Position numbers and translations under genes: made by a program. Shown here one piece after another: positions 3,698-61,667 of a stretch of DNA of 64,000 nt. Position 1 is the stretch's first letter; every line of letters starts with the position of its first letter. The notes beneath the pieces were generated by a model. The model was not told where the DNA came from and made no database searches. It saw only the letters and a program-made list of their open reading frames with translations. The stretch lies in the IMG/VR virus record IMGVR_UViG_3300031772_000002, positions 100,447-164,446 of that record. One strand, given 5' to 3'. The DNA is from a virus.

Positions 3698-5530
3698 ATG
3701 GAAATTTTTAGAGAATCTGAAGTTGCATCAATATTTACTGTTCCATTAATTGATGCATCAAAAAGACCTAGTTATAAAGCAAATCCAACTCTTGAAGCTG
3801 GTGATGTAAAAGTAATAAGACATACCGGTGGGGCATGGGATGTTTCAAATATTGCATCATTGCCATCAGCAATTGTTGGCGCGACATCAAATGTTTTAGT
3901 GTCTTTAACTGATACTGAATTAACATCTGATGATTTAAAATATCCAATTATTGTACAGTTTATAGATCAAACCGCCATAAACGAATGGGACAATCAAACT
4001 GTTATAATATGGACTCAAGTTTTAAATGTTGATCTTCTTAAAATTAATCATGAATCTATTAGTGGAAATGATGCAATATTAAATTTAAAACAATTAAATA
4101 TTGTATGCGATTCAGGAAAAGCGGTTAATATTGAATCTTTAGATAATATAGGAATTGATATTAAGGGCGGAGAAACGTATGAAGGAGTAAAAATAGAAGG
4201 TGGCGATGATGGGAATGGTTTAACAATATCAGCAGGTGAATCAGCTCATGGTATAGAAATAAATGCAGGTACTAACGGGGGCTATGCAGTTAAAATTCGT
4301 AATGATTATAGTGGGCCTGCTGTTTCAATACAAGCTATTGATGGGGCAGGGTTAGATTGTTCTGGTAAAACTGCTGGAATAAAAACAATAGCAACTGAAG
4401 GGGCTGGAATATTAATAGAAGGTGGTGGCGGACCTGGTATTGAAGTTATTGGTGATGATGGATTTTCTGGAATCTTAGCAAAAACTGTTGATAATGGATG
4501 CGGGATTGAAGTTATAGGCTCTTCTGACCAGCCAGGAATTAAAGTAACTGGTGGTCTTACTGGAGATGGTATGCGCATAGAAGCTGGTCCTAATGGCAAT
4601 GGAAACGGTTTAGCCGTACAAGGACAATCTGATGGAATATATGCGTATAGTCAGGACGGAGCTAATGGCATGTATTTACAAGGTGACGGGGAAGGGTCAG
4701 GTTTGTATATAGCAGGAGGAATTGAAGGAAATGGTATAGATGTTGATTCCGGTCCTACTACAGGAAATGGTATAAATATTTTAAGCGATGTTGGAATTGG
4801 AATAAATGTACAAGGTGGATTGGATAAGCCTGGAATTAAAGTGTCAGGAGGAATTACAGGAAATGCCATAGAAATTGTTGGTGGGGCTACATCTGGAAAT
4901 GGAATTGATATATCTACCATTGAAGGTTTAGGGATTAAAATTATTGCTGGTGGTACTGAAAAAGATGGAATATCAATTCAAGGATCTCCTGATGGCAATG
5001 GTATTAAAATTGATGGATTCGGAATAGGGCATGGTATTAAAATTGCTGCAGGAATTGAAGGGAGTGGTATTGTAGTGTATGGAGGATCTGATCTTGAACT
5101 TGGAGGACCTGCTATAGATTTAATTGGATCAAATACAAATACATATGCTGTTCAAATTCATGGAGGCATGTCAATGGTATCAAATACTGCTCTTCCTGGA
5201 TTGTTAATTACAGGAGATAGTGAATCTCCTGGAGTGTCTATTGCGGGTGGTTCATCTGGAAATGGCATTGATATTGTTGGGGCAGTTGGGCCTTCATTCT
5301 ATGATATTAACGCTAAAGAAGTAATAGGGCTTACACATTTAGATAGTGAAATTGATACTGTTCCTATATCTGAAGTTCTTGAACTTGTTATGGCTATGGT
5401 GAATGGTCGATTTGTAAAAGACGATCCTGAACCTGGACAAATTACATTTTATAAACGCGACGATGTGACTCCATTATTTACTGTAGCAGTAACTGAAACA
5501 GAACGTGAGCGTACTGATATTCCTGAGTAA
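3698..5530 (+). CDS. Glycine-rich repeat tail-fibre/spike protein
   Basis: 610 aa behind AAGGAG. Residues 1-110 form a beta-rich head ('VASIFTVPLIDAS', 'YPIIVQFIDQTAI') of the kind that attaches fibres to baseplates. Residues about 150-550 are a long run of short units of the type GNGI-x-I-x-GG (for example 'GNGIDIDS'-like and 'GHGIKIAAGIEGSGI'), spaced about 12-18 residues. The regular Gly plus aliphatic spacing predicts an extended beta-solenoid or intertwined trimeric fibre. The C-terminal 60 residues return to ordinary composition. Codons in the repeats use more GG dinucleotides than neighbouring genes, as the Gly content demands. Confidence 0.7.
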   Translation: MEIFRESEVASIFTVPLIDASKRPSYKANPTLEAGDVKVIRHTGGAWDVSNIASLPSAIVGATSNVLVSLTDTELTSDDLKYPIIVQFIDQTAINEWDNQTVIIWTQVLNVDLLKINHESISGNDAILNLKQLNIVCDSGKAVNIESLDNIGIDIKGGETYEGVKIEGGDDGNGLTISAGESAHGIEINAGTNGGYAVKIRNDYSGPAVSIQAIDGAGLDCSGKTAGIKTIATEGAGILIEGGGGPGIEVIGDDGFSGILAKTVDNGCGIEVIGSSDQPGIKVTGGLTGDGMRIEAGPNGNGNGLAVQGQSDGIYAYSQDGANGMYLQGDGEGSGLYIAGGIEGNGIDVDSGPTTGNGINILSDVGIGINVQGGLDKPGIKVSGGITGNAIEIVGGATSGNGIDISTIEGLGIKIIAGGTEKDGISIQGSPDGNGIKIDGFGIGHGIKIAAGIEGSGIVVYGGSDLELGGPAIDLIGSNTNTYAVQIHGGMSMVSNTALPGLLITGDSESPGVSIAGGSSGNGIDIVGAVGPSFYDINAKEVIGLTHLDSEIDTVPISEVLELVMAMVNGRFVKDDPEPGQITFYKRDDVTPLFTVAVTETERERTDIPE

Positions 5531-5544
5531 TACGAAAGATTGAA

Positions 5545-7596
5545 ATGGAAACAATTTTAACAACTGTAGATAATATATCCGTATATGGATTCAAATATCA
5601 AGGATCTAATATATTATTAGCAACATATGGATATCTTGATATTGATGATGCAAGACCTATTCCAAGTTTACCAGCAAGAATTGATGAATCTCCTTCTGAA
5701 TATGTTAATATTGAAGAAATGACAGGTCTTGTTTTTTGGAATTATATTTCTACTTTTTGGAATTATTTAACAGAAAAAGATCGTGATATTTTTGAAAATT
5801 TTTGGGATGGATTAACAAAAGCTAGTTATAGTTTATATGATAAATCTAAACGTTTTTTTAATTTAACAAATCCTGAAAATACAAATATTAACATTAGTGA
5901 ATATTATTATGATGTTTTAATCGGACCACTTAATTCTATACCTACTAATCTCGATCCAACTTCAAAAAATCCTAATTATATAATTCGTCCTATTAATAAA
6001 ATACTTATTGAACCTGAATATGATTCAAATGAAAATCCAATATATAATGATTTAATAGAAATAGAACGTAACGATTATTATAAAATAAGAGATATTGGAA
6101 TAGGGCAATATATTATTATTAAATTAAATGATGAAAATATTAATAATAAATATTTTAAAATTATAGACTTACTTTCATCAGAAGAAATTGACAATCGTTA
6201 CTATCCAGCATCAAGTAAAATTATAGTTAATGATGAATTGGTTGATGCCAAACCATCATTTAAATATATAATTAAAATAGATGGAGATTTATCATATATT
6301 AAAGACAACACATTTACTATATATTTAACTACTGGATTGTCTTATCAAATTGACAATTATATAACAGATCTTCCTGTATTGAAAAGTTTTATAAGTCAAC
6401 AATATGGAACTTCATTTTATGAAAATGTAGATTATTTATTTTATAATCATACTGTTGAATTTATTAATAATATTTTTAGTAATGGAAATCTTGAATTCGA
6501 TACTTATTTATATTGTCCTAATTCAAAATCAATTGAATACATGTTATATGAAACATATGGAACTCTTGTTGATTTGAGTGATTGGGAGTCTTATGGACAT
6601 GATGTTATTTCCGGCAAGGCGTCAATAAATTCACTATTATTATCTATCCAAAATTCTAACACTCTTTCATATTATAATAGGGCTTTAAATATCTATTATG
6701 GAATGCCTGTTGCTCCTGAAGATGCTACAGTAATAGGATTGTATGAATCGTATGCGTATGAAGTTTTATCAAAATCAGAATCTTATATTACTATTAAACT
6801 TAAATCAGGATCTTCAATGCATCCATTTATCCAGAATGGAACAGTTTTACTTGTTGAAGGAAAATCTGAAATAATGGTATATTCTGTTATTAACAGATTA
6901 ACTGGAGAATTAAGATTGTACGAAAGTAATAATGTAGCTGTTGGGGATTTTGTATATGTAAAACTTAATAATAAATATGGTATTAATGGTTTTAGAAAAG
7001 AAGTTGGTGAATTGCCAGGATCAATAGATATTCAAACTGAGTATGATGCAGATAAAATACAACATATTATTGATATTATTCAATATTTAACAGATAATAA
7101 ACAATATCCTGAAATTTTAGTATATGGAACAGAATTATTAGAGTATAATTATAATGGTATCTACCATATAACTAAATCTGAAAAAGTATTTTATGATACT
7201 AGATTAAAAATTTATCTTAAATCAAATAATGATAGTACTATATATAATGATTTTATTGTAAAAGGAGACTCTCGATTACATGGAGGATTTGTTCATATTC
7301 CATGGCCAACTCATAAATTTTTATATTTATATCTTAAATCAAAAAGATACTATAAGGTGTATATAGATACATCCCTTGATACTATATATGATACCGGAGA
7401 TGAAGTTAAAAAATATGACGTTATCACTCGAAACGTTTCTGCTGTTGATAATGAAATGTTTAAAGGTTGGGTTGAATTTGATCAATTTAGAAGATATAAT
7501 GGATTAAATATAGAATCTAATCATATTGAGTTAACAAGTACAATGCCAATGGCAAAATTTGGAGAATATTTTCCTGGAAGCGTTTTGTTAAAATAA
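5545..7596 (+). CDS. Large structural (baseplate/tail) protein, unknown family
   Basis: 683 aa, Tyr/Asn/Ile-rich. An aromatic helix pair near residues 65-110 ('FWNYISTFWNYLTEKDRD', then 'FENFWDGLTKASYSLYDKS') looks like an assembly motif, followed by beta-rich sequence and a region 'GSSMHPFIQNGTVLLVEGKS' around residue 425. No enzyme motif is visible. Gene order (between a fibre and small structural genes, 14-16 nt gaps) supports a baseplate or tail-attachment role. I do not recognise the family. Confidence 0.65.
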   Translation: METILTTVDNISVYGFKYQGSNILLATYGYLDIDDARPIPSLPARIDESPSEYVNIEEMTGLVFWNYISTFWNYLTEKDRDIFENFWDGLTKASYSLYDKSKRFFNLTNPENTNINISEYYYDVLIGPLNSIPTNLDPTSKNPNYIIRPINKILIEPEYDSNENPIYNDLIEIERNDYYKIRDIGIGQYIIIKLNDENINNKYFKIIDLLSSEEIDNRYYPASSKIIVNDELVDAKPSFKYIIKIDGDLSYIKDNTFTIYLTTGLSYQIDNYITDLPVLKSFISQQYGTSFYENVDYLFYNHTVEFINNIFSNGNLEFDTYLYCPNSKSIEYMLYETYGTLVDLSDWESYGHDVISGKASINSLLLSIQNSNTLSYYNRALNIYYGMPVAPEDATVIGLYESYAYEVLSKSESYITIKLKSGSSMHPFIQNGTVLLVEGKSEIMVYSVINRLTGELRLYESNNVAVGDFVYVKLNNKYGINGFRKEVGELPGSIDIQTEYDADKIQHIIDIIQYLTDNKQYPEILVYGTELLEYNYNGIYHITKSEKVFYDTRLKIYLKSNNDSTIYNDFIVKGDSRLHGGFVHIPWPTHKFLYLYLKSKRYYKVYIDTSLDTIYDTGDEVKKYDVITRNVSAVDNEMFKGWVEFDQFRRYNGLNIESNHIELTSTMPMAKFGEYFPGSVLLK

Positions 7597-35220: not shown

Positions 35221-35257
35221 ACAAAAAAAAGAGTCAATCGTATTGATTGACTCTTTT
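35221..35257 (-). terminator. Main terminator of the ubiquitin-like operon
   Basis: 13-bp perfect stem AAAAGAGTCAATC / GATTGACTCTTTT with a 5-nt loop. On the - strand it is followed by a run of eight T. It lies about 20 nt past the stop of the ubiquitin-like gene, so it marks the 3' end of the 35.3-40.8 kb operon. It may work bidirectionally. Confidence 0.85.
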
Positions 35258-35276: not shown

Positions 35277-35774
35277 TTATTTTTTATTTCTATTACCTTT
35301 CATTGACTGAGAAAGTATTAACCGAACCATACCTTCACCTTCATTTGGATAGATTATCTCATTACTGTTCATAGGATTTCCACCCGTTGATTTTCTATAT
35401 TCATACGCATCTTTTCCATCGGCTTTAAAATATTGACCTTTTTTTTCTTCTGGTAATAGATCAATAATTTGTTTGATTGACATGCCAACATTAGCATTTA
35501 CAGTATCAAAATTTGGAACTCCCAATCTGATTAACTGAACTTGAAAATCATTTCCATTACCCTTTACATTCTCACCAATGATAACTGTATCGCCATCTTT
35601 CAATTGGGTATTATTATTAATTCTTTCTCCGCTCCTTGTTATCGTTTCACTACTTTTAATTTTTTTATTTGCCACTTCAAGCAAGAATTCTACTTTAGGA
35701 TTAGACGAAACCTCATACGATTTAACATCAGCACCTAAAGAAACTAAAGTAACGATTATTGGACTACCATTCAT
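35277..35774 (-). CDS. Tandem beta-grasp ubiquitin-like protein (Ubl)
   Basis: 165 aa behind TAGGAGTTTTTT. Two consecutive segments have the beta-grasp order. Residues about 5-70: 'IIVTLVSLGADVKSYEV', a helix with 'LEVANKKI', then 'NTQLKDGDTVIIGE'. Residues about 76-155: 'FQVQLIRLGVPNFDTVNA', helix 'SIKQIIDLL', then 'GMVRLILSQ'. A tandem Ubl resembles ISG15 and the bacterial BilA proteins. The C-terminal tail is 'SQSMKGNRNKK': there is no Gly-Gly, only one Gly followed by a basic hexapeptide that a protease could remove. It is the last gene of a cassette with E1, JAB and E2-like genes. Role: the modifier that is conjugated. Fold assignment is by pattern and context. Confidence 0.7.
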   Translation of the reverse strand: MNGSPIIVTLVSLGADVKSYEVSSNPKVEFLLEVANKKIKSSETITRSGERINNNTQLKDGDTVIIGENVKGNGNDFQVQLIRLGVPNFDTVNANVGMSIKQIIDLLPEEKKGQYFKADGKDAYEYRKSTGGNPMNSNEIIYPNEGEGMVRLILSQSMKGNRNKK

Positions 35775-35784
35775 AAAAAAACTC

Positions 35785-36522
35785 CTATACTTTTAATAAT
35801 GTTTCACTGTCATTAAATCTTCTCATAAAAAAAGATTCAGGATATAAAGTAAAAATATATTCATTCCACATTTTTACTTCTGGTTGATCACAATACTTTT
35901 GAACAAAATGTTGAATCATTTTAGAACATGCAACACTGGCAATATATGTAGCTGTTATTATAATTGATTGGCTGGTTCCGCACAAGGACACATCAGCTTC
36001 CTCATCTGTACATAATGTTTTTTTCCACGCATCTACTTCTTCACCGATATGAGGATTAAACGCATAGATTCGACCTCCACGCAATCCCATTCTTGTTTCT
36101 ATTACCATATCGGTATTGAAGCTATATTTTATGCAGTTCTCAAATATTTCTTTACGACTCTTCATCGTATCTGTCAATAAGAAAACGTAAGTTGATTGAA
36201 CATCTTTGTCTTCAGTAACTATCATTCGATTGAATGTTTGTACTGAAAAATTACACTTACGTTTTATAATATCGTTCATAGCTTCTACTTTTGGCTTACC
36301 AACATCTTGTGGATAAAAAGATTGATTTGCCAAATTATGCTCTTCAACAATATCACCATCAAATAATTTAAGAACTCCTTGTTCATTATTACTATCTCCC
36401 CACCCTAATTGGGCAAGCATTAAAGCAATGGCACTTCCAGTAGCTCCGACCCCTACCAAAGAAATACTTTTATTTCTAATCATTTTTGGATTAATTAATT
36501 TTGATTGTCTACTATAATTCAT
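35785..36522 (-). CDS. ThiF/E1-like adenylating enzyme
   Basis: 245 aa. A Rossmann start 'SLVGVGATGSAIALMLAQLG' gives the ATP-binding GxGxxG (residues 24-29). Then come 'LFDGDIVEEHNLANQ' (Asp55/Asp57, Asn63, Gln67) and 'GKPKVEAM', the standard E1/MoeB/ThiF order. Cysteines at 171 and 181 ('CTDEEADVSLCGTSQS') are candidates for the catalytic thioester Cys, the second being in the CG.S context of PRTRC-type ThiF proteins. Role: adenylates the Ubl C-terminus and passes it to E2. Start ATG overlaps the JAB stop (ATGA); 10 nt separate it from the Ubl gene. Confidence 0.85.
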   Translation of the reverse strand: MNYSRQSKLINPKMIRNKSISLVGVGATGSAIALMLAQLGWGDSNNEQGVLKLFDGDIVEEHNLANQSFYPQDVGKPKVEAMNDIIKRKCNFSVQTFNRMIVTEDKDVQSTYVFLLTDTMKSRKEIFENCIKYSFNTDMVIETRMGLRGGRIYAFNPHIGEEVDAWKKTLCTDEEADVSLCGTSQSIIITATYIASVACSKMIQHFVQKYCDQPEVKMWNEYIFTLYPESFFMRRFNDSETLLKV

Positions 36523-37487
36523 AATAATTCCTTAAATTCATTATTATTATTATTATTAGATTTTAATTTATCTAATAATTCTATATATTCATTTAATTGA
36601 ATTATTTTATTATCTTCATAAAATACCACTTGTCTTTTTCCATCAACAAATTCAATTTTGCTACTTAAATTTTTTTTTTTATTATTGTTATATTTATGTC
36701 TCATATCAAAATTATCATATTCATGAAAATCATTATTATTATTTATATAACCATTTCTATTATCAAACAAAGACTGTTGCTTATTAAAATTTATATCAGT
36801 TTTAATATTAATTTCTTTTAATTTCAAAACCTTATTTACTATTTTATTATAAATAGATGAATCTGATATTGCTTTTGAAATTTTATCTACAACTTCGTTA
36901 ACTGATATTTCTTCTTGATCATATTTATTTATTATAATTTTTATTTCATTTATTTTTTTCAAATTAAGTTCTTCGTCTTCTTTTTCAATTTCCCATTTAA
37001 TATTATCAAATCTGATATTTTTAAATGGATCAAAAAAAGACACTGACATTTCTTTATCATCACATATTACTCTTATTAAATAAGAATTTGTACTTTTAAT
37101 TCGATCAATAGTCTGACTTTCATCCTGGTTGCTTGGACTAGTACCAGACATGTGTTTGTGTCCCCAAAGTTTTATTTTTCCTATTTCTTCCATTTTATTA
37201 TTATTAATCATGTACTGAATTAACTCAATTTCTCCATCGGAACTAATAGTACATGTTCCAGTATTAGCCTCTGAGTGTTTTGGATAATAGACATTTTTAA
37301 TATAAAATTTATAATCACCAATTTCTTCTACAGTTGCATAAAATCCAACTTCATGATTATGATTTTCAATAATAGCACCAATCCACATCATAGACTTTTT
37401 ACTGAAAATAATAATTGGAGAAATTTTATGTTCAGGAATTAACTGGCTATAAGTGGTATTTATATTTCTTTTGCTAAAACTTCTCAT
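36519..37487 (-). CDS. JAB/JAMM (MPN) metallopeptidase
   Basis: 322 aa from ATG 37487 with AAAGG 6 nt upstream. A longer reading from 37550 would translate an IS-like hairpin and was rejected. The JAMM zinc site is complete: Glu46 ('HEVGFY'), His110 and His112, Ser119, Asp122 ('GHKHMSGTSPSNQDE'). JAB enzymes of this kind process Ubl precursors or remove Ubl from targets (de-ubiquitinase-like). After about residue 150 there is a Lys/Asn-rich helical extension that may hold partner contacts ('VVDKISKAISDSSIYNKIVN'). It overlaps the E1 gene by 4 nt, indicating coupled expression. Confidence 0.85.
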   Translation of the reverse strand: MRSFSKRNINTTYSQLIPEHKISPIIIFSKKSMMWIGAIIENHNHEVGFYATVEEIGDYKFYIKNVYYPKHSEANTGTCTISSDGEIELIQYMINNNKMEEIGKIKLWGHKHMSGTSPSNQDESQTIDRIKSTNSYLIRVICDDKEMSVSFFDPFKNIRFDNIKWEIEKEDEELNLKKINEIKIIINKYDQEEISVNEVVDKISKAISDSSIYNKIVNKVLKLKEINIKTDINFNKQQSLFDNRNGYINNNNDFHEYDNFDMRHKYNNNKKKNLSSKIEFVDGKRQVVFYEDNKIIQLNEYIELLDKLKSNNNNNNEFKELL

Positions 37488-37509
37488 AGTTAACCTTTCA
37501 TGTTTTTTA

Positions 37510-37545
37510 CACAAGGATACCATGCCCCTTGTGGCCATGGTAGTT
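37510..37545. repeat. IS200/IS605-end-like hairpin between E2-like and JAB genes
   Basis: Imperfect 9-bp palindrome ACCATGCCC-CTTGT-GGCCATGGT at 37519-37541 followed by AGTTTGCAAAATC. A closely similar sequence stands at 48469-48505 (ACCACGACCCTTATGGCC..., then AGTTGACAATATC). Same loop class as the hairpin at 41800. Interpreted as a remnant or minimal unit of an IS200/IS605-type element that landed in the 69-nt intergenic gap. Confidence 0.5.
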
Positions 37546-37556
37546 TGCAAAATCTC

Positions 37557-38663
37557 TTATATTACATTAGGAAAAAACTTAATAAATACACCTAATTCAT
37601 CATTCATATTAGGTTGAGTAATAAACCTTATTATAATATCAAATATCATAGAGATATTTTTTAAAGCAAATGCTTTAATTAATGATTCCGTTACTACGTC
37701 CCCTAAACACATTGTTTCATTTCTAAAAACATGACCACACTCCAAAATTCTTCCTGAATAACTATCATAAAATCCTCTACTCATATTATGAATAGTTATA
37801 AAATTAGTAACTGTTCCTAATTCTCCAAAAAATAGTAAAATGTTGACTCCTATTCTCATTCTACCTATTTTTTTAAAAAATAACTCTCCATCATTTTCTT
37901 CTTTATAATCAAATACTTTTTCTTGTGTAATCAACTCTTTAGTAATGATTACAATTTCATCCTTAGTAAAACCTATTTCTTCTATATTATCATTAATTTT
38001 TAATTTATCAATATCATTGACAAATTTATCAATAAATTTATTATTATTAATACATACAAAACAATCATGAATTGATTGTTCTAACATAATTAATTCAGTA
38101 ATTAATCTTTTCTTTTTATTTTCCAAATCTTCAAGACGTTTTGAAGTATTAATTGTTTCTTTAAATATTTTTGAAATATAAGTTTTTAATTTATCATTAA
38201 AAAGAATGAATACTGAATTAGATCTAAACCAAAGATCAGATTTATCAGTATTTTCTTTATACCCTTCTTCATAATTAATTTCTTTATCTTCTTCTAAAAT
38301 TTCTAAAAATTTCTGATCTTCATTAGAAGTAATTTCTTCAACACAATCATCTTCAATATTAGAAATAATTTCATCAACACAATCTTCTTTATCTCCTACA
38401 GAATTAGCATTATTTGGAATTAAATTTTTTATACAAATTTCATCTGGATAATTATTATCAATAATATTAAGATTGTCAAATATCTTTTTTATTTCAGGAT
38501 TATAATTAATTAATAAATCTATAAATTCCTTCATTTTTTCTTTATCTACAGATACTAATGCTGCATCACTTGTATAACTTAAAATAGTAGAAATTTTAAA
38601 AATATCTTGAGATACTTTAAAAAAATCCACTATTTCATTTAATATAGTAACAATAATTTTCAT
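37557..38663 (-). CDS. E2-like protein, short version
   Basis: 368 aa behind AAAGGTTTTT. Residues 1-190 are helical and acidic ('DEIISNIEDDCVEEITSNED'). Residues about 225-360 look like an E2/UBC-type fold: 'VNILLFFGELGTVTNFITIH' strands, a motif 'CGHVFRNETMCLGD' (His311, candidate catalytic Cys319), then a long helix 'SMIFDIIIRFITQPNMNDE'. This resembles the (H)PHV....xCLG signature of prokaryotic E2 families, including the PRTRC type. It is paralogous in its last third to the larger upstream protein. Expected role: carries the Ubl thioester, or a regulatory E2 variant. Confidence 0.65.
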   Translation of the reverse strand: MKIIVTILNEIVDFFKVSQDIFKISTILSYTSDAALVSVDKEKMKEFIDLLINYNPEIKKIFDNLNIIDNNYPDEICIKNLIPNNANSVGDKEDCVDEIISNIEDDCVEEITSNEDQKFLEILEEDKEINYEEGYKENTDKSDLWFRSNSVFILFNDKLKTYISKIFKETINTSKRLEDLENKKKRLITELIMLEQSIHDCFVCINNNKFIDKFVNDIDKLKINDNIEEIGFTKDEIVIITKELITQEKVFDYKEENDGELFFKKIGRMRIGVNILLFFGELGTVTNFITIHNMSRGFYDSYSGRILECGHVFRNETMCLGDVVTESLIKAFALKNISMIFDIIIRFITQPNMNDELGVFIKFFPNVI

Positions 38664-38681
38664 AAAAAACCTTTCTTAAAT

Positions 38682-40787
38682 TTAAATTTTTATAGGTATA
38701 AAATCTCTTATTTTATCATCAAAAACTTTTTCCTTTTCAGAAATTTTGTACATAGTATTATAATCTAGCAAATCATCATCCTTTAATGCAATTTCTTTAG
38801 TAACTTCTGGCCAATTCACTACATGCTTACCAGCCGCATCACTTGTATTTACAGATTCAAGAAATATAATAATTTGATAAACTAGAGAATAAAGATCTCT
38901 ATTTCTATAAGAAGTTATCAATTGATTTCCAAGATTTCCATGGCAAATTCTACCATCACTAAAAACATGAGGGGCATTCATGTTATTCTCGTAACCATTA
39001 ATAGTATGTTTAGTATTGATAATCTTAATTGTATTATTTTCATCATATTTATTCGAATTAATTCCTATTGTTATTAGAAAAGTTCCAATATCATACCATT
39101 TATCACCAACATTAACATATAAATTTTTAGTATTAACATTAACAGTATCGTTTTTCAGTGATATAGATAAAACTTTTTTTAAATTTAAACATTCATCGTA
39201 TGATGATAAAGCTTTTTCTTTTTGTTTAACTATAAAGTCATTAAAATCAAAATGACTTATTTTTTCCATAGTTCTATCCATAAGTTTTGAATATTCCAAT
39301 ACTTCATTATAACTTTTTAAATATTTTGATCTATATTCATTATAAATTTCTTTTAAATCTGAAATATATTTTGTACTATTATCTATAACGTACTCAACAT
39401 ATTTTTCTCTATCTATAATATTTTTAGACAATATATAATTTTTATCAATTTCAAAAATTTCTTTTAATGTATATTTTTTTAAATATCTATTTGAAAATTC
39501 TTTAAAAATTAATTTCATACATAAATTATGATTTTCTTTTAACAATTTATCACTTTGTAAAATAGCTACATTACTAACAATTGGTATCATAAAAAATACC
39601 ATATTTTCTTTTTGAATTCCCCATATTAGGTTGGAAATATGATCCTTATAAACCATATTAAAATTATTAAATGATGAAGTTTCTTTTGATTTATTTTTTA
39701 ATACGAATATACTATATAATTCGTAACCAAAACAATTTATATTAACATTTCTACGTTCAACACAGTCAAATCCAATAGTATTATAATTAAATGCATATAA
39801 AGGATAGTTCATTCTTTCAATAAAAAAAAATAAAATATTTTTTTTTATTTCTTGAACTATATTTATATCAAAATTATTATTTAAATATGTTGCTATATCA
39901 TGTATAAATCTAAATTCAATAATAATAATATGTTTTTTAATATTTTCAGCAATAGATTTTATTTCATAAAAAAAATCTTTTAAATATTCAGAATCTACTT
40001 TAGTTAAAAAATATGTAACTAAATATGAAGAATCTTCATAATTTCCAATATTTTTTTCATCAACAGAGTATTGTTTTTTATATAAATGAATAAGTAAATA
40101 GTTATTTATATATTTTAATACTTCAGATTTAAAATTTATTATTTTAATTTCTTCATCATCAACTGGAAGTATTGATGAATTTTCATCTTTAGCAATTATA
40201 TTTTCATTTATAGATGAAGCCTCAATACTATCAAAATGCTGTGCGCTAACTAATTTACTTTTATCTAAAACACTATCTAATTCATCTAAAATTTGATCTA
40301 ACTGTTCATTATGTATAACTTCAGTTTGATGTTCTTGTTCAGACGCTATATTTGGTAAACTTTGCTCTATTGGAGTTATTAATCTCTTGATTTCCAGTAC
40401 AACATCATCAAATATAAATCTATTACCACTATTATTTAAGCATATAAAATTATATAACTCTTCATTTAAATTTGAAGGAGTTAATTCAAATAATATATTA
40501 TCATTAATCCAAAATGGATGTAATATTATTTTCACACCACTTATATTTGAATTGACTGTTTGTATTTTAATATCGTATACTTTTTCATAATCCTTACATG
40601 ATGAAAGTTTATCCTTTATTTTATTACAATTAAAAATTTCTTTAATAATATTTATAATTTTTAATGTATCAGTTCTACTAACTATCGCTATTTCTTCATT
40701 TGAATTAAGTGTATATGGAACATAGTCAACACCAATATTTTGAGCTAGCCATTTTTCACAAAAAGCAAACATATTATCACATTCCAT
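38682..40787 (-). CDS. Large E2-like protein, first gene of the Ubl operon
   Basis: 701 aa behind AAGGAG (11-nt spacing; an in-frame ATG a few codons later is also possible). The N-terminal 130 residues form an alpha/beta domain. Residues 140-220 are an acidic, probably disordered linker, and 220-540 are helical with no known motif. The C-terminal E2-like region begins near residue 560: 'WYDIGTFLITIGIN', then 'NAPHVFSDGRICHGN' (His607, candidate catalytic Cys615), then helix 'DLYSLVYQIIIFLESVNTSD'. This is the PHV...G.iC order of UBC proteins and prokaryotic E2s. The extra N-terminal 500 residues may select the target. Expression is probably driven from the AT-rich gap at 40.79-40.88 kb. Confidence 0.7.
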   Translation of the reverse strand: MECDNMFAFCEKWLAQNIGVDYVPYTLNSNEEIAIVSRTDTLKIINIIKEIFNCNKIKDKLSSCKDYEKVYDIKIQTVNSNISGVKIILHPFWINDNILFELTPSNLNEELYNFICLNNSGNRFIFDDVVLEIKRLITPIEQSLPNIASEQEHQTEVIHNEQLDQILDELDSVLDKSKLVSAQHFDSIEASSINENIIAKDENSSILPVDDEEIKIINFKSEVLKYINNYLLIHLYKKQYSVDEKNIGNYEDSSYLVTYFLTKVDSEYLKDFFYEIKSIAENIKKHIIIIEFRFIHDIATYLNNNFDINIVQEIKKNILFFFIERMNYPLYAFNYNTIGFDCVERRNVNINCFGYELYSIFVLKNKSKETSSFNNFNMVYKDHISNLIWGIQKENMVFFMIPIVSNVAILQSDKLLKENHNLCMKLIFKEFSNRYLKKYTLKEIFEIDKNYILSKNIIDREKYVEYVIDNSTKYISDLKEIYNEYRSKYLKSYNEVLEYSKLMDRTMEKISHFDFNDFIVKQKEKALSSYDECLNLKKVLSISLKNDTVNVNTKNLYVNVGDKWYDIGTFLITIGINSNKYDENNTIKIINTKHTINGYENNMNAPHVFSDGRICHGNLGNQLITSYRNRDLYSLVYQIIIFLESVNTSDAAGKHVVNWPEVTKEIALKDDDLLDYNTMYKISEKEKVFDDKIRDFIPIKI

Positions 40788-40886: not shown

Positions 40887-41192
40887 TTACTTTAGAGAAT
40901 TTAAAAAATTAAGCCCAAGAGAGATTTTAATATTATTCCACCTATCGATGGAATCACATGAAAAAGCTTTAGATCCGCAATCATTTAACTTTTTTATTTT
41001 ATATTCCTGTAATTTACTTGGAACCTTTCCTGGCTTTTTTACTTCAATAAATACCGCCCCGGTAATTTTTGTAGTAAAGAAAATATCCAATTCACCGGAA
41101 TCACTTGACTTTATTAATTTAAAACATTCACAATATTTTCCATAAGATCGTAAATCTTTTAAAATAATATCCTGAATTTTTTTTTCTTTCAT
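40887..41192 (-). CDS. VRR-NUC domain nuclease
   Basis: 101 aa. Short PD-(D/E)XK nuclease of the VRR-NUC family: N-terminal 'KIQDIILKDLRSYG' (Glu/Lys helix), core 'SGELDIFFTTKITGAVFIEV' followed by 'KKPGKVPSKLQEYKIKKL', giving the D...EVK catalytic triad and the Q in the following helix. Stand-alone VRR-NUC proteins are common in phages and cut Holliday junctions or flap-like structures. Complete length for the family. No good ribosome binding site; translation may be coupled to the gene 6 nt upstream. Confidence 0.85.
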   Translation of the reverse strand: MKEKKIQDIILKDLRSYGKYCECFKLIKSSDSGELDIFFTTKITGAVFIEVKKPGKVPSKLQEYKIKKLNDCGSKAFSCDSIDRWNNIKISLGLNFLNSLK

Positions 41193-41799: not shown

Positions 41800-41820
41800 C
41801 CCCGACCCTTGTGGTCGGGG
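41800..41820. repeat. IS200/IS605-end-like hairpin
   Basis: Perfect 8-bp stem CCCCGACC / GGTCGGGG with loop CTTGT, followed by ATGAATCG. GC-rich in an AT-rich gap, and the loop and arm design match the hairpins at 37.5 and 48.5 kb. It could double as a terminator, but there is no T-run after it on either strand, so a transposon-end origin is preferred. Confidence 0.5.
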
Positions 41821-42461: not shown

Positions 42462-44219
42462 TTATAAAACATTCGCCCATTTAGATAAAGTAAAAGATAA
42501 ATCAATTTTATTTTTTATAGCTTTTAAAATTATTTCATCTATTGTTCCAGATACAGTCAAATCAATAACTGTAACATTATTCTTTTGACCTTGCCTATAT
42601 TGCCTTCCTTCGGCTTGATCCCTTTCAATATATGAATAAGAGTTAGTTACAAATACAGAATAATTTGAAAATTGAATATTATGACCGGCTCCCATTTTTT
42701 TCTGATTTGCTATCAAAAATCTATATTTATTATCTTTAAACTTTTGAATAGTATCAAAAACATCTTGATCTTGATAACATGTTAATAATTTTTCTACACC
42801 AAAAGCTTGTGAAAGTTTTTCAACAATAATTTCAATACCATATGTATAGTTACACCAAATAATAACTTTACAATCTTTATTGATATTATTAAGTATTTGA
42901 ACCAATAATTCCAATTTTGGATTCTCTTTAATTTTAATAATATTTCTTTTTTCTATTTTCTTTCCATTACTATCTATTTCAATACGTGTATTAATATAAA
43001 ATCCAAATGATATCTGCTGCAATTTTCTTAATAAAACTAATGCATTCTTTGCAATTAATGAATTTTCACAAGAATTATTGCAATTATTTTTACATGTACA
43101 ACTTTCGCACATATTATTAATAGTTACTATTAATTCTTTTTTTAACTCATTGTAAATTCTTTCTTGTTCAGTTCCCATTGAGCAAGAATATGTTTCATAT
43201 ATTAATTCAGGAAGATCTATGCATTCTTCTTTTTTAAATCTAACAGCCAGATCACCAATTATTTTTGATACCTTATCAACAGATCCTTTGTTAGGAACCA
43301 ATATATATTGATTAATATCCACCGGATGCATAAAATTTCCACGAAATTCACTATACTTGGCAAAAGGAACAGTATCAGGGCCAAGAAATCTATATGGCAT
43401 AAAAAATGACATAAGATTATTAGCTGTAAGTGTTGCGGTAATAATATATTTATATTTACATGATTCAAAAAAATCTACGATAGCCCTGGTTTGATGTGAA
43501 GAAGGACTTCCTATTCTATGTGCTTCATCAAGTATTACCATATTAAAAAATTCTTTTGGAATTATTTCTATTAATGAATTCATTGATTCATAATTTGCTA
43601 TATAAATATCATAATCCACATTCTTTTTATTATCTTTATATTTTTTATTAATTATAGAATCAGATTTACTTTTATTAGAAAGAATTACCCCTTTTAAATG
43701 AGGAACTTGAATTTTCATCTCTTCAAAAACATTTTTCTTTAAATTTGAAAGAGTAATTATAATAGCTCTTTTAATTTTTTTTAGTTGTATTTTTTTATCT
43801 ATAGCCCATAAATAAGGACCCGTTTTACACGTCCCCGTGTCCGCTAAAATGGCCGAAGCGTCAGGATATACTATCATATTAAAAATTATTTTTTGATGCT
43901 TCATGACGCTATAACAGCCCCTATATTCATAATCAAATTTGATATCTTCACTATTATATTGAGATTTTATTTTTTTAATAACTTCTTTACGCTTTTGAAT
44001 ATTTAATTCAACTAATCTAATAATTGATCTAACCTCATCTGAACACTCTATTTTATAATCAGTAAAATAATTTAACTTAGTACTTGATTTATTAGGAATA
44101 ATAATTTTATTTACATTTCTAACTTTACGTCCATCCATTGTTGCCTGCATTTGCTCAAGAAGAACTTTATCATTGCATCCTACAATTAACTGGTTCTTAT
44201 TATATATTTCAACTTTCAA
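42462..44219 (-). CDS. SNF2-type superfamily 2 helicase
   Basis: 585 aa from TTG 44219 behind AGGCGG. Motif I 'ADTGTCKTGPYL' (Lys132), motif II 'VILDEAHRIG' (DEAH 231-234), motif III 'ITATLTANN', and in the C-terminal lobe 'CKVIIWCNYTYGIEIIVEKL' and motif VI 'DQAEGRQYRQGQKNNV'. The R-Q-Y-R-Q-G-Q form is typical of SNF2-like ATPases. An unusual five-cysteine cluster (Cys371, 374, 376, 380, 384) lies between the lobes, perhaps a metal site. Phage SNF2 proteins remodel or unwind DNA during replication or recombination. Ends in 'KWANVL'. Full-length for the class. Confidence 0.85.
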   Translation of the reverse strand: MKVEIYNKNQLIVGCNDKVLLEQMQATMDGRKVRNVNKIIIPNKSSTKLNYFTDYKIECSDEVRSIIRLVELNIQKRKEVIKKIKSQYNSEDIKFDYEYRGCYSVMKHQKIIFNMIVYPDASAILADTGTCKTGPYLWAIDKKIQLKKIKRAIIITLSNLKKNVFEEMKIQVPHLKGVILSNKSKSDSIINKKYKDNKKNVDYDIYIANYESMNSLIEIIPKEFFNMVILDEAHRIGSPSSHQTRAIVDFFESCKYKYIITATLTANNLMSFFMPYRFLGPDTVPFAKYSEFRGNFMHPVDINQYILVPNKGSVDKVSKIIGDLAVRFKKEECIDLPELIYETYSCSMGTEQERIYNELKKELIVTINNMCESCTCKNNCNNSCENSLIAKNALVLLRKLQQISFGFYINTRIEIDSNGKKIEKRNIIKIKENPKLELLVQILNNINKDCKVIIWCNYTYGIEIIVEKLSQAFGVEKLLTCYQDQDVFDTIQKFKDNKYRFLIANQKKMGAGHNIQFSNYSVFVTNSYSYIERDQAEGRQYRQGQKNNVTVIDLTVSGTIDEIILKAIKNKIDLSFTLSKWANVL

Positions 44220-49581: not shown

Positions 49582-51624
49582 TTATTCTTCAATATTATCA
49601 TTTTTATCGATACGAGCATCAAACTTAGTAACAGTTTTTTCATCTGAAATATTTTTAATTTCTTCTTCAGTAAATTTTATATTTTTATTATTACATATCT
49701 TTTCAAATGAATCTTCTGTTATACTATAATATGGTATTATCTCATTAAGAGTTATATCTTTTTCTCTTAATGCAATAACTGTTTTAAGAGGATCGTAAGA
49801 TCGAGAATTTATAGTATAAAAATCCAATACTGCTTTTTCGTCAATAAATATTGTTGAATCACATTGATTTACAAATGATTTACACATTTTTAATAATTTA
49901 GTATTTTCTGATTTATTGCATTCTATTTTTTTCCATGCCTTAATACATGTATCAATATTGGTTATAGAATTAATATTAATATCTTCAGAATTTTGTTTAT
50001 TAAATAATGGACATATTCCATCTTCTCCCAAATAACATGTATGACAATATTCATTTCGAATAGGTTCAAAAGATTTGTTTTCTTCTTTATTTACTTCTAA
50101 TTTAAGATCTTTAATTGCATCGTTAACCCATTCAAGTGCCTCATCGACAATTTGTTTTACATTATCAATTTGATATTCAATTGATTTATTAAAACGTATA
50201 TATTCTATTCTAAAAATAATACTTTGATAAGAATCTTTTGGAAGAAAATAATATACAAGCAAAACATACATTTTCATTTGCATATCATTCTTTAATTGAT
50301 CAACAGTCATCATTTTTCGAGAAGTTTTGTAATCTGTAATAATAACAAATGGACATAAATATGATAAAATATCAATAATACCTCTAATAAAAACTTTATT
50401 AGAATAAAAATCACTTAATATTGATAAATTTTTATCTAATGCTATTTTTAATTCAGTTAATATTATTTCATCATCTAATAAATTAAAACTTTTTTGTTCA
50501 TAGTATTTCCACATAATATAATTAACATCTTTTATAATATTAAAATCAGTACATTTATAAAACATAATAGCTTTTTTTATAATATTAGAAAATGTTAAAT
50601 TATCAGGAATTGAAGGTCTTTCATATGAATCTTTATCAACAGTTTCATTTACTGATTTTATTAATGAAGTCATATCTTTGATATTATCAAATATTGAATC
50701 GATTATATTATTATACTTATATATATAATATGCAAAAAATTTATAATCAACATTAAAAGGTTCTACCCTAAATTCTTTAGATATTTTTTCACGATATAAA
50801 TCAGTTATTATTATATTTTTTAATTCACAATATTTAATAAACTTATTAGCAAACAATTCTCTATATACCCATTCCCCAGACCATTCGGCAATCTTATGAC
50901 AAATATTACCGCAAGTTAAATAATCCCTTTGCGGCTCTTTTATATTCTTTATATAAGTCATAAACCATTTAAATCCACATTGTCTAAATAAATTTATTCG
51001 GCTAAACGAGTACGACTGAGTTTCTATAATATCAATTAAATTTTTATCTATCTTTTTATCTATCTTTTTGTCAACTTGTTTTTTTTCAGAACTTGACTCA
51101 AATAATGTAATTTCTAAATTTTTATTTTCTTTATCGTCAAGATCTTTTAACTTGACAAATAATTCAATTGTTTTTTCAACGTCATAACCAGATCTATGGC
51201 CTAAATTTTCTTCCCATTTAATTCCCATTCTCGTACACGCTAACTTAAGCCTATTTCCTCCGGTATATCTTTTTCTACAAATTTTTAAAGTATCGTAAGT
51301 TGACTTAGGTGTTATTTTTAAAAAACCTAAATCAAAATCATCTATATTATGACCTACCAACACTCTATCTCCAACAAATTTAGCAATTAATTCCCGTACA
51401 CTTTCCAGGTAAATAGGTTTGTCTTTAACCATATCGTATGTTATTTTATTTATTTTTGAGACCTCGATAGGAATAAAGCCAGCCATAGGTTTACATAGAG
51501 TACTTATTGAATTTCCTTTTATTCCTAATCTATTGAATTCTATAGCTGTTACCTCAACAACTTCATCGTTTTGAGGATTAAGTCCGGTTGTCTCTACATC
51601 AATGCATACATAATTATATTCCAT
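49582..51624 (-). CDS. DnaQ-like 3'-5' exonuclease fused to a Cas4/RecB-type nuclease
   Basis: 680 aa behind AGGAGAAGAAA. Residues 1-165 are a DEDDh exonuclease: Asp9/Glu11 ('CIDVETTGLNP'), Asp95/96 ('GHNIDDFDLGF'), His143/Asp148 ('HRSGYDVEKT'). Residues about 205-545 are a PD-(D/E)XK nuclease of the Cas4/AddB/RecB type: 'CGNICHKIAEW' (His243), 'VFIRGIIDIL' (Asp418), 'VIITDYKTSRKM' (Asp431, Lys433), 'DMQMKMYVLL' (Gln449). Cys216, Cys527, Cys530 and Cys538 sit where the Fe-S cluster cysteines lie in Cas4/AddB. The last 140 residues are unassigned. Likely role: processing DNA ends in replication or recombination. The start overlaps the previous gene by 11 nt. Confidence 0.85.
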   Translation of the reverse strand: MEYNYVCIDVETTGLNPQNDEVVEVTAIEFNRLGIKGNSISTLCKPMAGFIPIEVSKINKITYDMVKDKPIYLESVRELIAKFVGDRVLVGHNIDDFDLGFLKITPKSTYDTLKICRKRYTGGNRLKLACTRMGIKWEENLGHRSGYDVEKTIELFVKLKDLDDKENKNLEITLFESSSEKKQVDKKIDKKIDKNLIDIIETQSYSFSRINLFRQCGFKWFMTYIKNIKEPQRDYLTCGNICHKIAEWSGEWVYRELFANKFIKYCELKNIIITDLYREKISKEFRVEPFNVDYKFFAYYIYKYNNIIDSIFDNIKDMTSLIKSVNETVDKDSYERPSIPDNLTFSNIIKKAIMFYKCTDFNIIKDVNYIMWKYYEQKSFNLLDDEIILTELKIALDKNLSILSDFYSNKVFIRGIIDILSYLCPFVIITDYKTSRKMMTVDQLKNDMQMKMYVLLVYYFLPKDSYQSIIFRIEYIRFNKSIEYQIDNVKQIVDEALEWVNDAIKDLKLEVNKEENKSFEPIRNEYCHTCYLGEDGICPLFNKQNSEDININSITNIDTCIKAWKKIECNKSENTKLLKMCKSFVNQCDSTIFIDEKAVLDFYTINSRSYDPLKTVIALREKDITLNEIIPYYSITEDSFEKICNNKNIKFTEEEIKNISDEKTVTKFDARIDKNDNIEE

Positions 51625-58598: not shown

Positions 58599-61500
58599 TT
58601 AATCAATATCCTCATCATCATTTTGTTCTTTGTTTGAAACAATTGTATCAATTGGAATTGTTATTGCCTTTTCTGCATTAGATTTTTTTATAAATATTAT
58701 TAATTTATCTTCTGCTCCAGGCAATCTTTTTAAAATATGTTTCCAATTTCGTGACCATGGAGTATTTGATAATATTTTAGCTAGTTGTATATTAGAATTA
58801 GAAATTGCCAATTTTATTATTCCTTCATAAAGTCTTATTCCATTTCTACGTAAAATATTATCATATTCACATTCATGGGTTCCTTTAGAGTTTAAAGATT
58901 CTAACATTATACTTGAACCTTTTGATTTATTCTCATTTATAGATTTATAAAAATCAATATTTTTAATAATAATTTCTCCGATTGAAAGATTTTTATTATC
59001 TAAATATTCATGAACTGGTAACAAGGTATGCAAAATATGATTTAATAATTTAAATTCATCTTTGCTTTCATTTTCATTTTCATTTTCATTTTCATATTCA
59101 TTAAATTTTAAACTTTTAATCCATGATTTTGCATGATCATACGAAATATAGTCATAATATTTTAAAATATAATAACTCACAAGAAGTGTTCCTAATTGAT
59201 CTCCACCTCTTTTGCTTCCATATAATTCTGCAATGATATCGCTTAAAATCTTTTGATATTTTAAAATTAATGGTATTAACTGTTTCATTGTTTTTTCTAA
59301 TCCAATAATAAATTCATCAGTTAAAGTTTCTTTAACTTCTTTTATAAGTTTTTCAAAATTGGATTTGCTTTTCTTTTCTTCAATCAAACTTAAAATACTG
59401 AATCTTGATACATCAGCTTTAAGTAATTGCATAACCCCAATACTCGCAAAGCAGAATGATGATTTTATAGAAAAAGAAGAAGCAATCCCTCCTTTTGTTC
59501 CTTTAACAATGCTAGATTCATCATCAGAACTTGCCTGACGAGCTAACTCTATAATTCTTTGAATATTATTTTGTGAACTATAACTTTCCCCTTCAGCTTC
59601 ATCAAATAAAACGGGTCTAGCATCATGTTTTAATGTTTGACGAATACCAGCTTCAGTACTATTTGAAGTAACATGAAGGCACGTATTGCCTACTATTTTT
59701 TTAATGATATTATCTATTATCCAGGTTTTTCCTACACCAGAAGATCCTGTAATTTGAATATGAGCTCTCCATGGAAGTATTCCACATAAGTTTGCCGTAA
59801 TTGTCCATCCAAAACATAGTATTGCATCTATAGAACTTTCCCATGGCAACAACTCAAATATTTCTATTAATTTTTTACATTCATCTATTGGTAAAGGATC
59901 TATTCTTTTAGTTAATTCATTCAATTTTTTATTATAATTTGTTGATGCTTCGTATATATATTCTGATTTAAAATCATCAGATAAAAATATTTCTTCTTTA
60001 TAAATTTTTTCTTCTTCATCAAATTCAAGGCATATAATATTTTTTACACCATCAAATGTTACAATCCTTTTATTATCAAAATATGTTCCAACTCCACGGA
60101 TCCTGTTAAGTGTAAAATATCCTTTACTATGACATCTTTTAATTAATTCATTTACAATGAATTTCCAGCATGGGCCATCTTCGTTTCCACAATATTCCTG
60201 AAACCATTCAAGTGGGGCTAATTGTAAAAGATGTAATGCTTTATGTTTCTCAGGAGTTAGATCAACGACTTGTTTTTTTATTTTAGAATAATAAAAATAC
60301 ACATCATTATTAAATCCCAAACAATTAAATGGAAACTCTAATCCTGATTTTGGTTTTAAATTATGATCTAAGTTAGAATCTGAATAAGTAAATAGTTCTA
60401 ATTTTTTCTGTTCAGATTCTTGTTTTATAGTTTCATAATTTTTAATAACGTATACCGGGGTATCATCTATTAATTTTTTAAATCTTTCTCCTGCAGTTTC
60501 ATTAAATCCATTTTTAAATAAAAAATCAGTTAGATCTTTTTCTGATCTTTTGGTCTTTCTTACCAAATTAACTTCAAATTCTTTAATTAACGACGGATCA
60601 AGACCGTAAGGATTGGTATCTGATTTATCCAAGTTTATTATCTTTATGTCTTTTGTATATTTATAAATATTAAAAGCAAGTTCTTTTGAACTTTCGTATC
60701 CTGTTTTATCTGAATCAGATACAATAACAATAGTTTTATCTTTAAAAATTTTAGAAACATTTGGTCCAAAAATCTTATCGATATCAGTATTTTTTTCAGA
60801 ACCTAACGAAACAGCATTCTTAAACCCATGTGCTATAGCACAATACATGTCAGGTTCACCTGAACATATCATCAAAGGATTATTATAAAAATTTTTGTAT
60901 AATGAAAAACATCTTCCCTTTCCTTTATGAAGAACTGACCATTTATATGCCAGATTGCCACTTAAAGGGTTGTAGACCTTAAAATTTACCAGATCGTCTT
61001 TTTCATTAGTCATAGGGAAGATAAACTGTTGCTTGCCTTTAAGCCCTATCCTAAGCTCTTTAATCATGTCTACAGTAATTCTTCTGGTTTCATATAAATA
61101 ATTAATCATTTCATCAGAGTTAAGAAGATTTTTAACATAAACATTTAATTCATTTATAATAAATTCTTGAGATTCATTATTTACTATTGCCTCTACATCT
61201 GGCGGCAATATATATTCTTCATTACCATTTTCTGAATTTAAACGTTTAACTGTAGCATGAAGTTCTTTTAATTGATCGCAGTACTTATCCATGTTAGGAT
61301 CTTCTGCGTTAGTAGAAAAATTAACATAATTTGAAACGTTTAATTTAAGAAAATCGATTATAAAATCTGAATAATGTTCGCCAAAAGATCTATTTTTTAA
61401 GTACTCTTTCCAGTAAGACTGAAAATTTCCTTTAATTCCACAAGCGTGACAATAAAACATTCCGGTTTTATTGTCTACAGTCAGGGAGGCGTTTGAATCA

Positions 61501-61667
61501 GCACCGTCAGAATGTCCTCCCGGATTTATACAAAAGAAATTTTTGTTAGCTTTAGATTGTTTCCAACCTAAATTTTTATATATTTCATGATACCGATTTT
61601 CCATTTGCATTCCAGCCAATGAAAAAAGAATTTTTAACTGAGGTTTACCCAGTATATATTTATGCAT
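58599..61667 (-). CDS. Primase-helicase (zinc finger, TOPRIM, SF3-like ATPase)
   Basis: 1022 aa behind TAGGATTTTT. CHC2-type zinc site Cys46, His52, Cys73, Cys76 ('CINPGGHSDG', 'FYCHACGIKG'). TOPRIM: Glu271 ('ICSGEPDMYCAIAHG') and Asp318/Asp320 ('IVIVSDSDKTGYES'). ATPase: Walker A 'ITGSSGVGKTWI' (Lys647), Walker B 'PVLFDEAEGES' (686-695), a D5/DUF927-like organisation. An acidic Asn-Glu repeat ('NENENENESKDEF') sits near residue 870. Role: primer synthesis coupled to unwinding at the phage fork. No DNA polymerase is in the window. Confidence 0.9.
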   Translation of the reverse strand: MHKYILGKPQLKILFSLAGMQMENRYHEIYKNLGWKQSKANKNFFCINPGGHSDGADSNASLTVDNKTGMFYCHACGIKGNFQSYWKEYLKNRSFGEHYSDFIIDFLKLNVSNYVNFSTNAEDPNMDKYCDQLKELHATVKRLNSENGNEEYILPPDVEAIVNNESQEFIINELNVYVKNLLNSDEMINYLYETRRITVDMIKELRIGLKGKQQFIFPMTNEKDDLVNFKVYNPLSGNLAYKWSVLHKGKGRCFSLYKNFYNNPLMICSGEPDMYCAIAHGFKNAVSLGSEKNTDIDKIFGPNVSKIFKDKTIVIVSDSDKTGYESSKELAFNIYKYTKDIKIINLDKSDTNPYGLDPSLIKEFEVNLVRKTKRSEKDLTDFLFKNGFNETAGERFKKLIDDTPVYVIKNYETIKQESEQKKLELFTYSDSNLDHNLKPKSGLEFPFNCLGFNNDVYFYYSKIKKQVVDLTPEKHKALHLLQLAPLEWFQEYCGNEDGPCWKFIVNELIKRCHSKGYFTLNRIRGVGTYFDNKRIVTFDGVKNIICLEFDEEEKIYKEEIFLSDDFKSEYIYEASTNYNKKLNELTKRIDPLPIDECKKLIEIFELLPWESSIDAILCFGWTITANLCGILPWRAHIQITGSSGVGKTWIIDNIIKKIVGNTCLHVTSNSTEAGIRQTLKHDARPVLFDEAEGESYSSQNNIQRIIELARQASSDDESSIVKGTKGGIASSFSIKSSFCFASIGVMQLLKADVSRFSILSLIEEKKSKSNFEKLIKEVKETLTDEFIIGLEKTMKQLIPLILKYQKILSDIIAELYGSKRGGDQLGTLLVSYYILKYYDYISYDHAKSWIKSLKFNEYENENENENESKDEFKLLNHILHTLLPVHEYLDNKNLSIGEIIIKNIDFYKSINENKSKGSSIMLESLNSKGTHECEYDNILRRNGIRLYEGIIKLAISNSNIQLAKILSNTPWSRNWKHILKRLPGAEDKLIIFIKKSNAEKAITIPIDTIVSNKEQNDDEDID

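Follow-up and report, generated by a model that had tools for sequence, protein, structure and literature searches.

This locus raises the question of whether a tailed phage possesses a ubiquitin-like conjugation pathway of its own and, if so, which proteins that pathway would serve. We analysed a 64,000-nt stretch of viral DNA (hereafter the window), which spans bases 100447-164446 of the 164,446-base IMG/VR record IMGVR_UViG_3300031772_000002. Five closely spaced open reading frames (ORFs) on its minus strand, running from 40787 to 35277, form a cassette with the gene order E2-E2-JAB-E1-Ubl, encoding two E2-like proteins, a JAB/JAMM metalloprotease, an E1-like adenylating enzyme and a ubiquitin-like protein (Ubl). 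The JAB and E1 ORFs share 4 nt (36519-36522), and the cassette ends at an intrinsic terminator on the same strand (35227..35257), a 13-bp hairpin followed by a U run that reads from 35257 to 35227 and has a folding z of -4.25. On the five co-directional genes, the overlap and the strong terminator, the preliminary description of this DNA was thus correct. We propose that the five genes probably constitute the phage's own ubiquitin-like conjugation pathway, comprising precursor maturation, activation and transfer, with targets in replication or takeover. The gene set, its order, the conserved catalytic residues and the KG(N/S) motif that ends each Ubl repeat are read directly from the sequence, while the steps of the mechanism are inferred. 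Direct family searches of the cassette proteins (Pfam and others) recognise the E1 only; the Ubl and the JAB are backed well, and the E2s moderately, by their relatives, by profiles and by a model.

The identical five-gene order is present in at least 11 distinct viral loci with E1 identities of 53-61%, and this exact recurrence is more than chance. The earlier claim of a complete Ubl-E2-JAB-E1 set inside a phage genome is therefore borne out, with conservation in relatives.

The last gene of the cassette (35277..35774; all cassette features are on the minus strand) encodes a tandem Ubl of 165 amino acids (aa). Its AlphaFold model consists of two beta-grasp domains, residues 6-69 (35568..35759) and 76-156 (35307..35549), joined by a flexible KGN segment (predicted local distance difference test score, pLDDT, 85.8). 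A fold search returned linear di-ubiquitin and ISG15 (E about 1e-7) as the top neighbours, and also polyubiquitin, in agreement with the tandem beta-grasp protein that had been predicted. At the profile level, the Ubl is nearest to the archaeal protein modifier SAMP2, which the three-repeat relative L189 matches above the Pfam cut-off, and three other relatives match ThiS (3.9e-6); the Ubl profile had no match to the crAss Ubl or to PRTRC-C.

Each repeat closes with the same short motif. The first ends in K71-G72-N73 (35556..35564), where conservation points to a JAB cleavage site after G72, and the second in K159-G160-N161 (35292..35300), a proposed maturation site followed by an RNKK tail. 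The K and G of the first repeat end are invariant in 12 Ubls, and KGN or KGS closes each domain in 13/13 distinct two-domain Ubls; single-domain Ubls (71-73 aa) terminate at a KGN that aligns with the first site of the tandem proteins. L189 (2264-2896) carries three repeats of ~69 aa, each closing in QIKGN, plus one extra C-terminal Asn, and the number of residues after KGN ranges from 0 to 21 among the Ubls. As background, a KG(N/S) tail was found in 10 of 4018 other proteins of these loci. The residue after the glycine varies, with KGS at both repeat-end sites in the Ubl of L020 and QGA at both ends of the last two repeats in a further three-repeat precursor, that of L188 (13222-13887), while the glycine itself is constant. 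This is the pattern expected from a protease site after Gly, and with such a site the JAB, besides the E1, should be needed in every cassette. Hence, we infer from these alignments that the JAB cleaves the Ubl after the Gly of KG(N/S), in an arrangement of repeats that resembles, by analogy, the polyubiquitin precursor.

The E1-like enzyme (35785..36522, 245 aa) has a ThiF fold and matches PF00899 at 4.5e-21 (75.5 bits, cut-off 28.1), with the glycine motif GVGATG (GxGxxG). Its adenylation and nucleotide-binding residues are all invariant among relatives, as is Cys181 (35980..35982), the predicted catalytic cysteine; both the glycine motif and a candidate catalytic cysteine had been noted beforehand. 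Matches in the PDB include UBA5, UBA6, MccB and ThiF, and a paired CxxC is absent in 154/160 phage E1s. In an E1 tree built by a quick method without bootstrap, for which clade support values are given here, the window falls within a supported clade (99) of the double-E2 type, beside single-E2 phage types. Separate clades hold the crAss/Flavobacterium types (98), a reverse-transcriptase-linked type (100) and the PRTRC plasmids (100), and the tree sets the phage E1s apart from a metabolic ThiF.

The first gene, E2a (38682..40787, 701 aa), was assigned from an AlphaFold model and alignments of relatives. The protein is laid out as an N-terminal alpha/beta domain (residues about 5-135), a disordered middle, a long helix and a C-terminal UBC-like domain (residues 515-670, 38778..39245), in which the modelled order of helix, beta-meander, active-site loop and helices is that of an E2. 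The N-terminal domain is itself modelled well and may be a substrate-recognition part. The predicted catalytic Cys615 (38943..38945), in APHVFSDGRICHG, is invariant in relatives, and it aligned with the active-site stretch of E2 W, HPHVYSNGHICL, when the domain profile was compared with the PDB. The second gene, E2b (37557..38663, 368 aa), carries the motif ECGHVFRNETMCLGD and is homologous to E2a (hhalign probability 98.5). Its predicted catalytic Cys319 (37707..37709) goes with His311, and H311, C319 and G321 are invariant. Both proteins thus have GH/PH...C.G motifs, and H, C, G and D are invariant across 18 diverse E2-like domains.

Five of the seven PDB matches of the E2a domain profile at E<=5 are E2 enzymes, none of them individually significant; the matches include E2 W, E2 N, E2 8 and another UBC protein. 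A fold search placed UbcH7 at the top (E 0.15), with RWD-fold proteins and Atg10 recurring in the top 40, all weak, and one member of the E2-like family matches UQ_con at 0.006. The full-length E2a profile had no match in the PDB, a Pfam scan of E2b relatives had none either, and full-length E2 profiles gave nothing significant against PRTRC-B, PRTRC-F or the crAss-type E2. With the E2 domains alone, the crAss-type match climbs to 52% probability with the Cys aligned, and PRTRC-B remains at about 6%. Taking the motif, the model, the fold and profile matches and the operon partners together, we regard the E2 identity of E2a and E2b as likely. The prediction of two E2-like proteins therefore stands as to motifs, mutual homology and E2 topology, with weak support from folds and profiles.

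Given the ThiS matches among Ubls of this group and the ThiF-family matches of the E1, the genes could instead form a sulfur-carrier module, either ThiS-ThiF-like or a JAB-dependent, CysO-like biosynthesis, with no protein conjugation. This is highly improbable: there are two E2-like proteins with an invariant Cys, the annotated neighbours include no genes for rhodanese, thiamine or molybdopterin, and the E1 tree splits phage E1s from metabolic ThiF.

The third gene (36519..37550) encodes the JAB/JAMM metalloprotease, identified by family alignment and weak Prok-JAB matches. It comprises 343 aa when read from a TTG, and an ATG at 37538 or a start near 37484 is equally likely. Prok-JAB is matched weakly by 3/7 members of the family (best 0.011), and comparison with the crAss-type JAB gave an hhalign probability of 90. 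By alignment and spacing comparison, the JAMM motif reads H131-x-H133-x6-S140-x2-D143 (37122..37160) with an upstream Glu67, and E67, H131, H133, S140 and D143 all align with the residues of relatives.

Taken in order, these components suggest the following pathway. The Ubl would be translated as a head-to-tail precursor, which the JAB would cut after the Gly at each KG|N to give Ubl units with a C-terminal Gly. The ThiF-type E1 would adenylate this Gly and then take it onto Cys181, from which the Ubl would move to Cys615/Cys319 of E2a and/or E2b and finally to lysines of target proteins. Target specificity may come from the large N-terminal parts of the E2s, without an E3. Among the least certain steps, the JAB may also strip the Ubl from targets. 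Equally among the least certain parts are the targets themselves, which may be phage or host proteins in DNA replication, recombination or early takeover. Conjugation by the cassette is indirectly but well supported; its target is a guess. The Ubl is a beta-grasp protein, the evidence for the E2s is weak but favourable, and relatives retain the cassette; it was on these points that the preliminary description had let its reading stand or fall.

The choice of target depends largely on the genomic setting. Plus-strand genes fill 0.2-35.0 kb of the window, and from 35.3 kb onward the genes lie mostly on the minus strand, including those for a helicase (42462-44219), a DNA polymerase exonuclease (49582-51624) and a primase (58599-61667). 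A VRR-NUC-type nuclease gene (40887..41192, minus strand; phrog_93, 6.8e-13) precedes E2a directly, as it does in nearly all window-type relatives in the synteny comparison, and a terminator-like hairpin (41800..41820, minus strand) is probably the upstream bound of the transcription unit. Among the genes of the record as a whole are those for a large terminase (phrog_675) and a head maturation protease, along with helicases, an exonuclease subunit of DNA polymerase and a primase, which identifies the source as a tailed phage. Bacterial contamination was rejected, since the record also carries a phage terminase and phage replication genes, and many viral contigs have the same cassette. The phage is very divergent, with the nearest terminases among named phages at just 26-27% identity and a guanine-cytosine content of 27.5%. 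Nine supposed virion-block proteins (window 212-34481) had zero matches in PHROGs, in which the terminase and head protease from elsewhere in the record did match. As the search of these large proteins gave nothing, the plus-strand block is taken as the virion block by its position and by the genes for terminase and head protease in other parts of the record, not gene by gene.

The preliminary description had placed the cassette directly after the virion module and, from this position, had suggested among other roles that it could modify the phage's own particles. The cassette is no part of that module: it is the final unit of the minus-strand replication block, co-directional with the helicase, VRR-NUC, DNA polymerase exonuclease and primase genes. 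It is convergent with the virion block, and terminators on both strands separate the two. Four other phage lineages show a similar location among replication genes. In crAss-like phages the neighbours are primase, uracil-DNA glycosylase (UDG) and nuclease genes; in Flavobacterium phages, toprim and UDG genes; in Xanthomonas phages, DNA ligase and topoisomerase genes; in L027/L028, a DNA polymerase gene; and in L039, a UvsX-like recombinase gene. From this location, shared with other phage lineages, replication-related targets seem the most likely. Alternatively, the same chemistry might put a mark of maturation or protection on the phage's own virion, at the portal, the tail or the capsid, as the adjoining virion block would allow. 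The convergent orientation, the terminators on both strands and the replication-module location in crAss-like, Flavobacterium, Xanthomonas and DNA-polymerase-linked lineages make a virion target unlikely.

The case most favourable to a virion target is Salmonella phage Arash, whose E2-JAB-E1 genes (L224, 176281-179301; gp246c-gp248c) lie between tail genes and the terminase and run contrary to the other lineages. Its E1 matches PF00899 at 7.8e-15, its JAB matches PF14464 at 1.4e-7, above the cut-off, and its E2-like protein, which is Prok-E2_D-like, matches PF14460 at 0.024. The GenBank record labels the E1-like and E2-like genes structural, and mass spectrometry of purified Arash particles detected the proteins Gp246-Gp249 and Gp251 (PMC10585845), a numbering that may differ by one between the published table and GenBank. 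The particle preparation also contained DNA ligase and primase (PMC10585845), so that the detection shows expression during infection but does not establish a virion location. The Arash proteomics therefore provides expression support for a distantly related cassette.

Several points weigh against a conjugation pathway serving replication. For E2a, no fold-search E-value is significant (the best is 0.15) and the model as a whole is poor (pLDDT 60), and neither E2a nor E2b matches any Prok-E2 Pfam family. The C-terminus of the Ubl is not Gly-Gly, and exposure of a C-terminal Gly would require processing; KG(N/S) is conserved at every repeat end. We know of no E3 or proteasome partner. Arash is a counter-example to the replication-module location, and the expression support that it offers comes from another cassette subtype. 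Finally, the JAMM loop of the window is non-standard, HxH-x6-S-x2-D, one residue shorter than the x7 of almost all relatives; the HxH...S..D site that had been called intact thus keeps all its residues but not its usual spacing. HxHx6SxxD was found in the window alone among about 150 JABs, and the downstream 120-aa gene of most relatives is missing here, as might be expected if the cassette were decaying and inactive through its shortened loop. We consider such decay very unlikely. The near relatives L172 and L175 carry an x8 spacing, so that the short loop is taken as loop drift in this sublineage, and apart from the JAMM spacing the reading frames, KGN sites, terminator and catalytic residues of the window cassette are intact.

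We compared the cassette with known systems that have a similar gene set. Such sets have been described before, in bacteria and on plasmids (Iyer et al. 2006, PMC1779556), and kinship with PRTRC or Bil had been suggested for this one. By the tests made on its sequences, it appears to be neither. With Bil it shares the E1, E2 and JAB conjugation logic, and it differs in being phage-borne and without fusion. BilA, BilB and BilC profiles had no match in the cassette, and BilD alone was matched by the window E1 (1.1e-4, 19 bits), below threshold and below many CBASS E1-E2 models. The cassette might nevertheless act as a Bil-like weapon against competing phages, tagging rival tail proteins for superinfection exclusion, since its gene set is the same as that of the bacterial antiphage Bil system and the BilD match, although weak, exists. 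We regard this as improbable: the three other Bil profiles are unmatched, the location in a core replication block and the vertical conservation with VRR-NUC and helicase are unlike those of a cargo defence gene, and the cassette is absent at close identity from the bacterial genomes scanned. In CBASS, Cap2 is a fused E1-E2 with a CD-NTase neighbour, whereas the window has separate E1 and E2 genes, and the matches of PADLOC E1-E2 models to the window cover the E1 part alone.

The PRTRC genes (class 6d of Iyer et al. 2006; proteins A, B, C and ThiF) have the E2-JAB-E1 order in common with the window and a Ubl that resembles the window type in being small, with 2/4 PRTRC Ubls ending in GAKG. However, the window E1 reaches 43.8 bits against PRTRC_ThiF (cut-off 144.75) and lies in a separate clade, the E2 match to PRTRC-B is that of about 6%, and the cassette lacks ParB, protein E and protein F genes. 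The polyUbl operons (class 6e, PMC1779556) likewise combine 2-3 tandem Ubl repeats with an E1 and a JAB, but their JAB is fused to the E1 and their E2 fold has no Cys, whereas in the window the JAB has a gene of its own and neither E2 has lost the Cys. Among phages, the crAss-like Steigviridae (crAss001 gp79-gp76) and Flavobacterium phages Fpv/FpV4 have an operon of Ubl-like, E2-like, JAB and ThiF genes in the replication module, like the window. These operons differ in their separate E1 clade, single E2, Ubl-E2-JAB-E1 order and a Ubl in which a (K/R/A)SG motif is followed by a long C-terminal extension. Arash has E1, JAB and E2-like genes as in the window, in a cultured phage, but with another E2 family, a 346-aa E1, no recognised Ubl and a place beside tail genes. 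SAMP2, matched by the Ubl profile and by L189, has a single domain; its C-terminus is Gly-Gly and it acts without a classical E2.

How widespread such cassettes are was examined by alignment-based scans of viral contigs for E1, which gave 73, 61 and 52 loci in overlapping sets. An alignment of eight E1 sequences had no conserved block fit for scanning, and two narrower alignments were used instead. A first scan with the single E1 sequence had yielded one chance match (L001), which was discarded as the shared EEVDAWKK sits in a terminase-like ORF. There are 155 loci with a distinct E1, nearly all from phages; 135 have a JAB (adjacent in 124), 93 an E2 and 72 all four parts, and these counts are lower bounds because contig ends cut some loci and the E2 and Ubl diverge fast. 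In bacterial and archaeal genomes, the single-sequence E1 scan had no match, and the E1 family alignment found 18 relatives in 84,980 genomes, at 36-37% identity at most and thus none of them close; several lie on short contigs and may be phage. No other partner accompanies the phage E1 as constantly as the JAB does, as might be expected of a counter-defence directed at a host Ubl-defence system, which the Ubl, E1 or JAB of the phage would strip or compete with. For that purpose, a protease or a decoy would suffice, and all full window-type loci keep complete sets with seemingly intact catalytic residues and self-processing Ubls, which makes counter-defence very improbable.

Some of these loci have additional genes. 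Several window-type cassettes carry a gene of ~110-135 aa after the Ubl (L018:9389-9724, L016:9356-9703, L176:8740-9069, L181:11330-11704 and L022:9325-9732); at about 120 aa, it is present in most relatives, is missing in the window and is possibly an extra component. In one phage E1 clade, a reverse transcriptase (TRYADD motif) lies 1-4 genes downstream in 36/42 tree rows (L012, L043, L045 and 33 more), and this clade has a conserved block of a small beta-grasp-like protein, an E2-like protein, a JAB and an E1. Xanthomonas phage PhiXhv-15 (L003) encodes, beside its E1, an 892-aa protein with an E2-like PH...CLG motif (4238-6916) together with a small beta-grasp-like protein whose last residues are GG (3733-4158), with no JAB recognised at the locus.

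We found no description of complete phage Ubl cassettes in the open-access literature; the search was limited to that literature, and an earlier description elsewhere is possible. What is new is the multi-repeat precursor with its KG(N/S) ends, and the distribution across phages. Phage Ubl genes have been hidden behind their labels: database entries call the phage E1 genes mostly 'thiamine biosynthesis protein' and once 'E1 enzyme family protein', and the Ubl-E2-JAB-E1 blocks of crAss-like and Flavobacterium phages, some of them cultured (L002, L004, L010, L011 and L013), are labelled hypothetical or thiamine biosynthesis. In prokaryotes, Ubl conjugation has so far been treated chiefly as a matter of bacterial defence or of plasmids. 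In the present case, it looks like equipment of the phage itself, which is widespread in phages and extends to crAss-like phages with cultured members. The multi-unit tag, like cellular polyubiquitin, and the complete gene set in many unrelated phages together suggest that phages probably tag proteins during infection. The chances seem to us evenly balanced that several unrelated lineages of tailed phages own a dedicated Ubl conjugation system as a core part of the replication module, with three or more E1 clades, including one linked to a reverse transcriptase, and with multi-repeat precursors cut by the JAB at a new KG|N site. The KG(N/S) ends provide a clear mass-spectrometry signature for infected cells. 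If true, this would open up a class of phage-driven post-translational modification and represent a second origin-like case of the logic of the polyubiquitin precursor.

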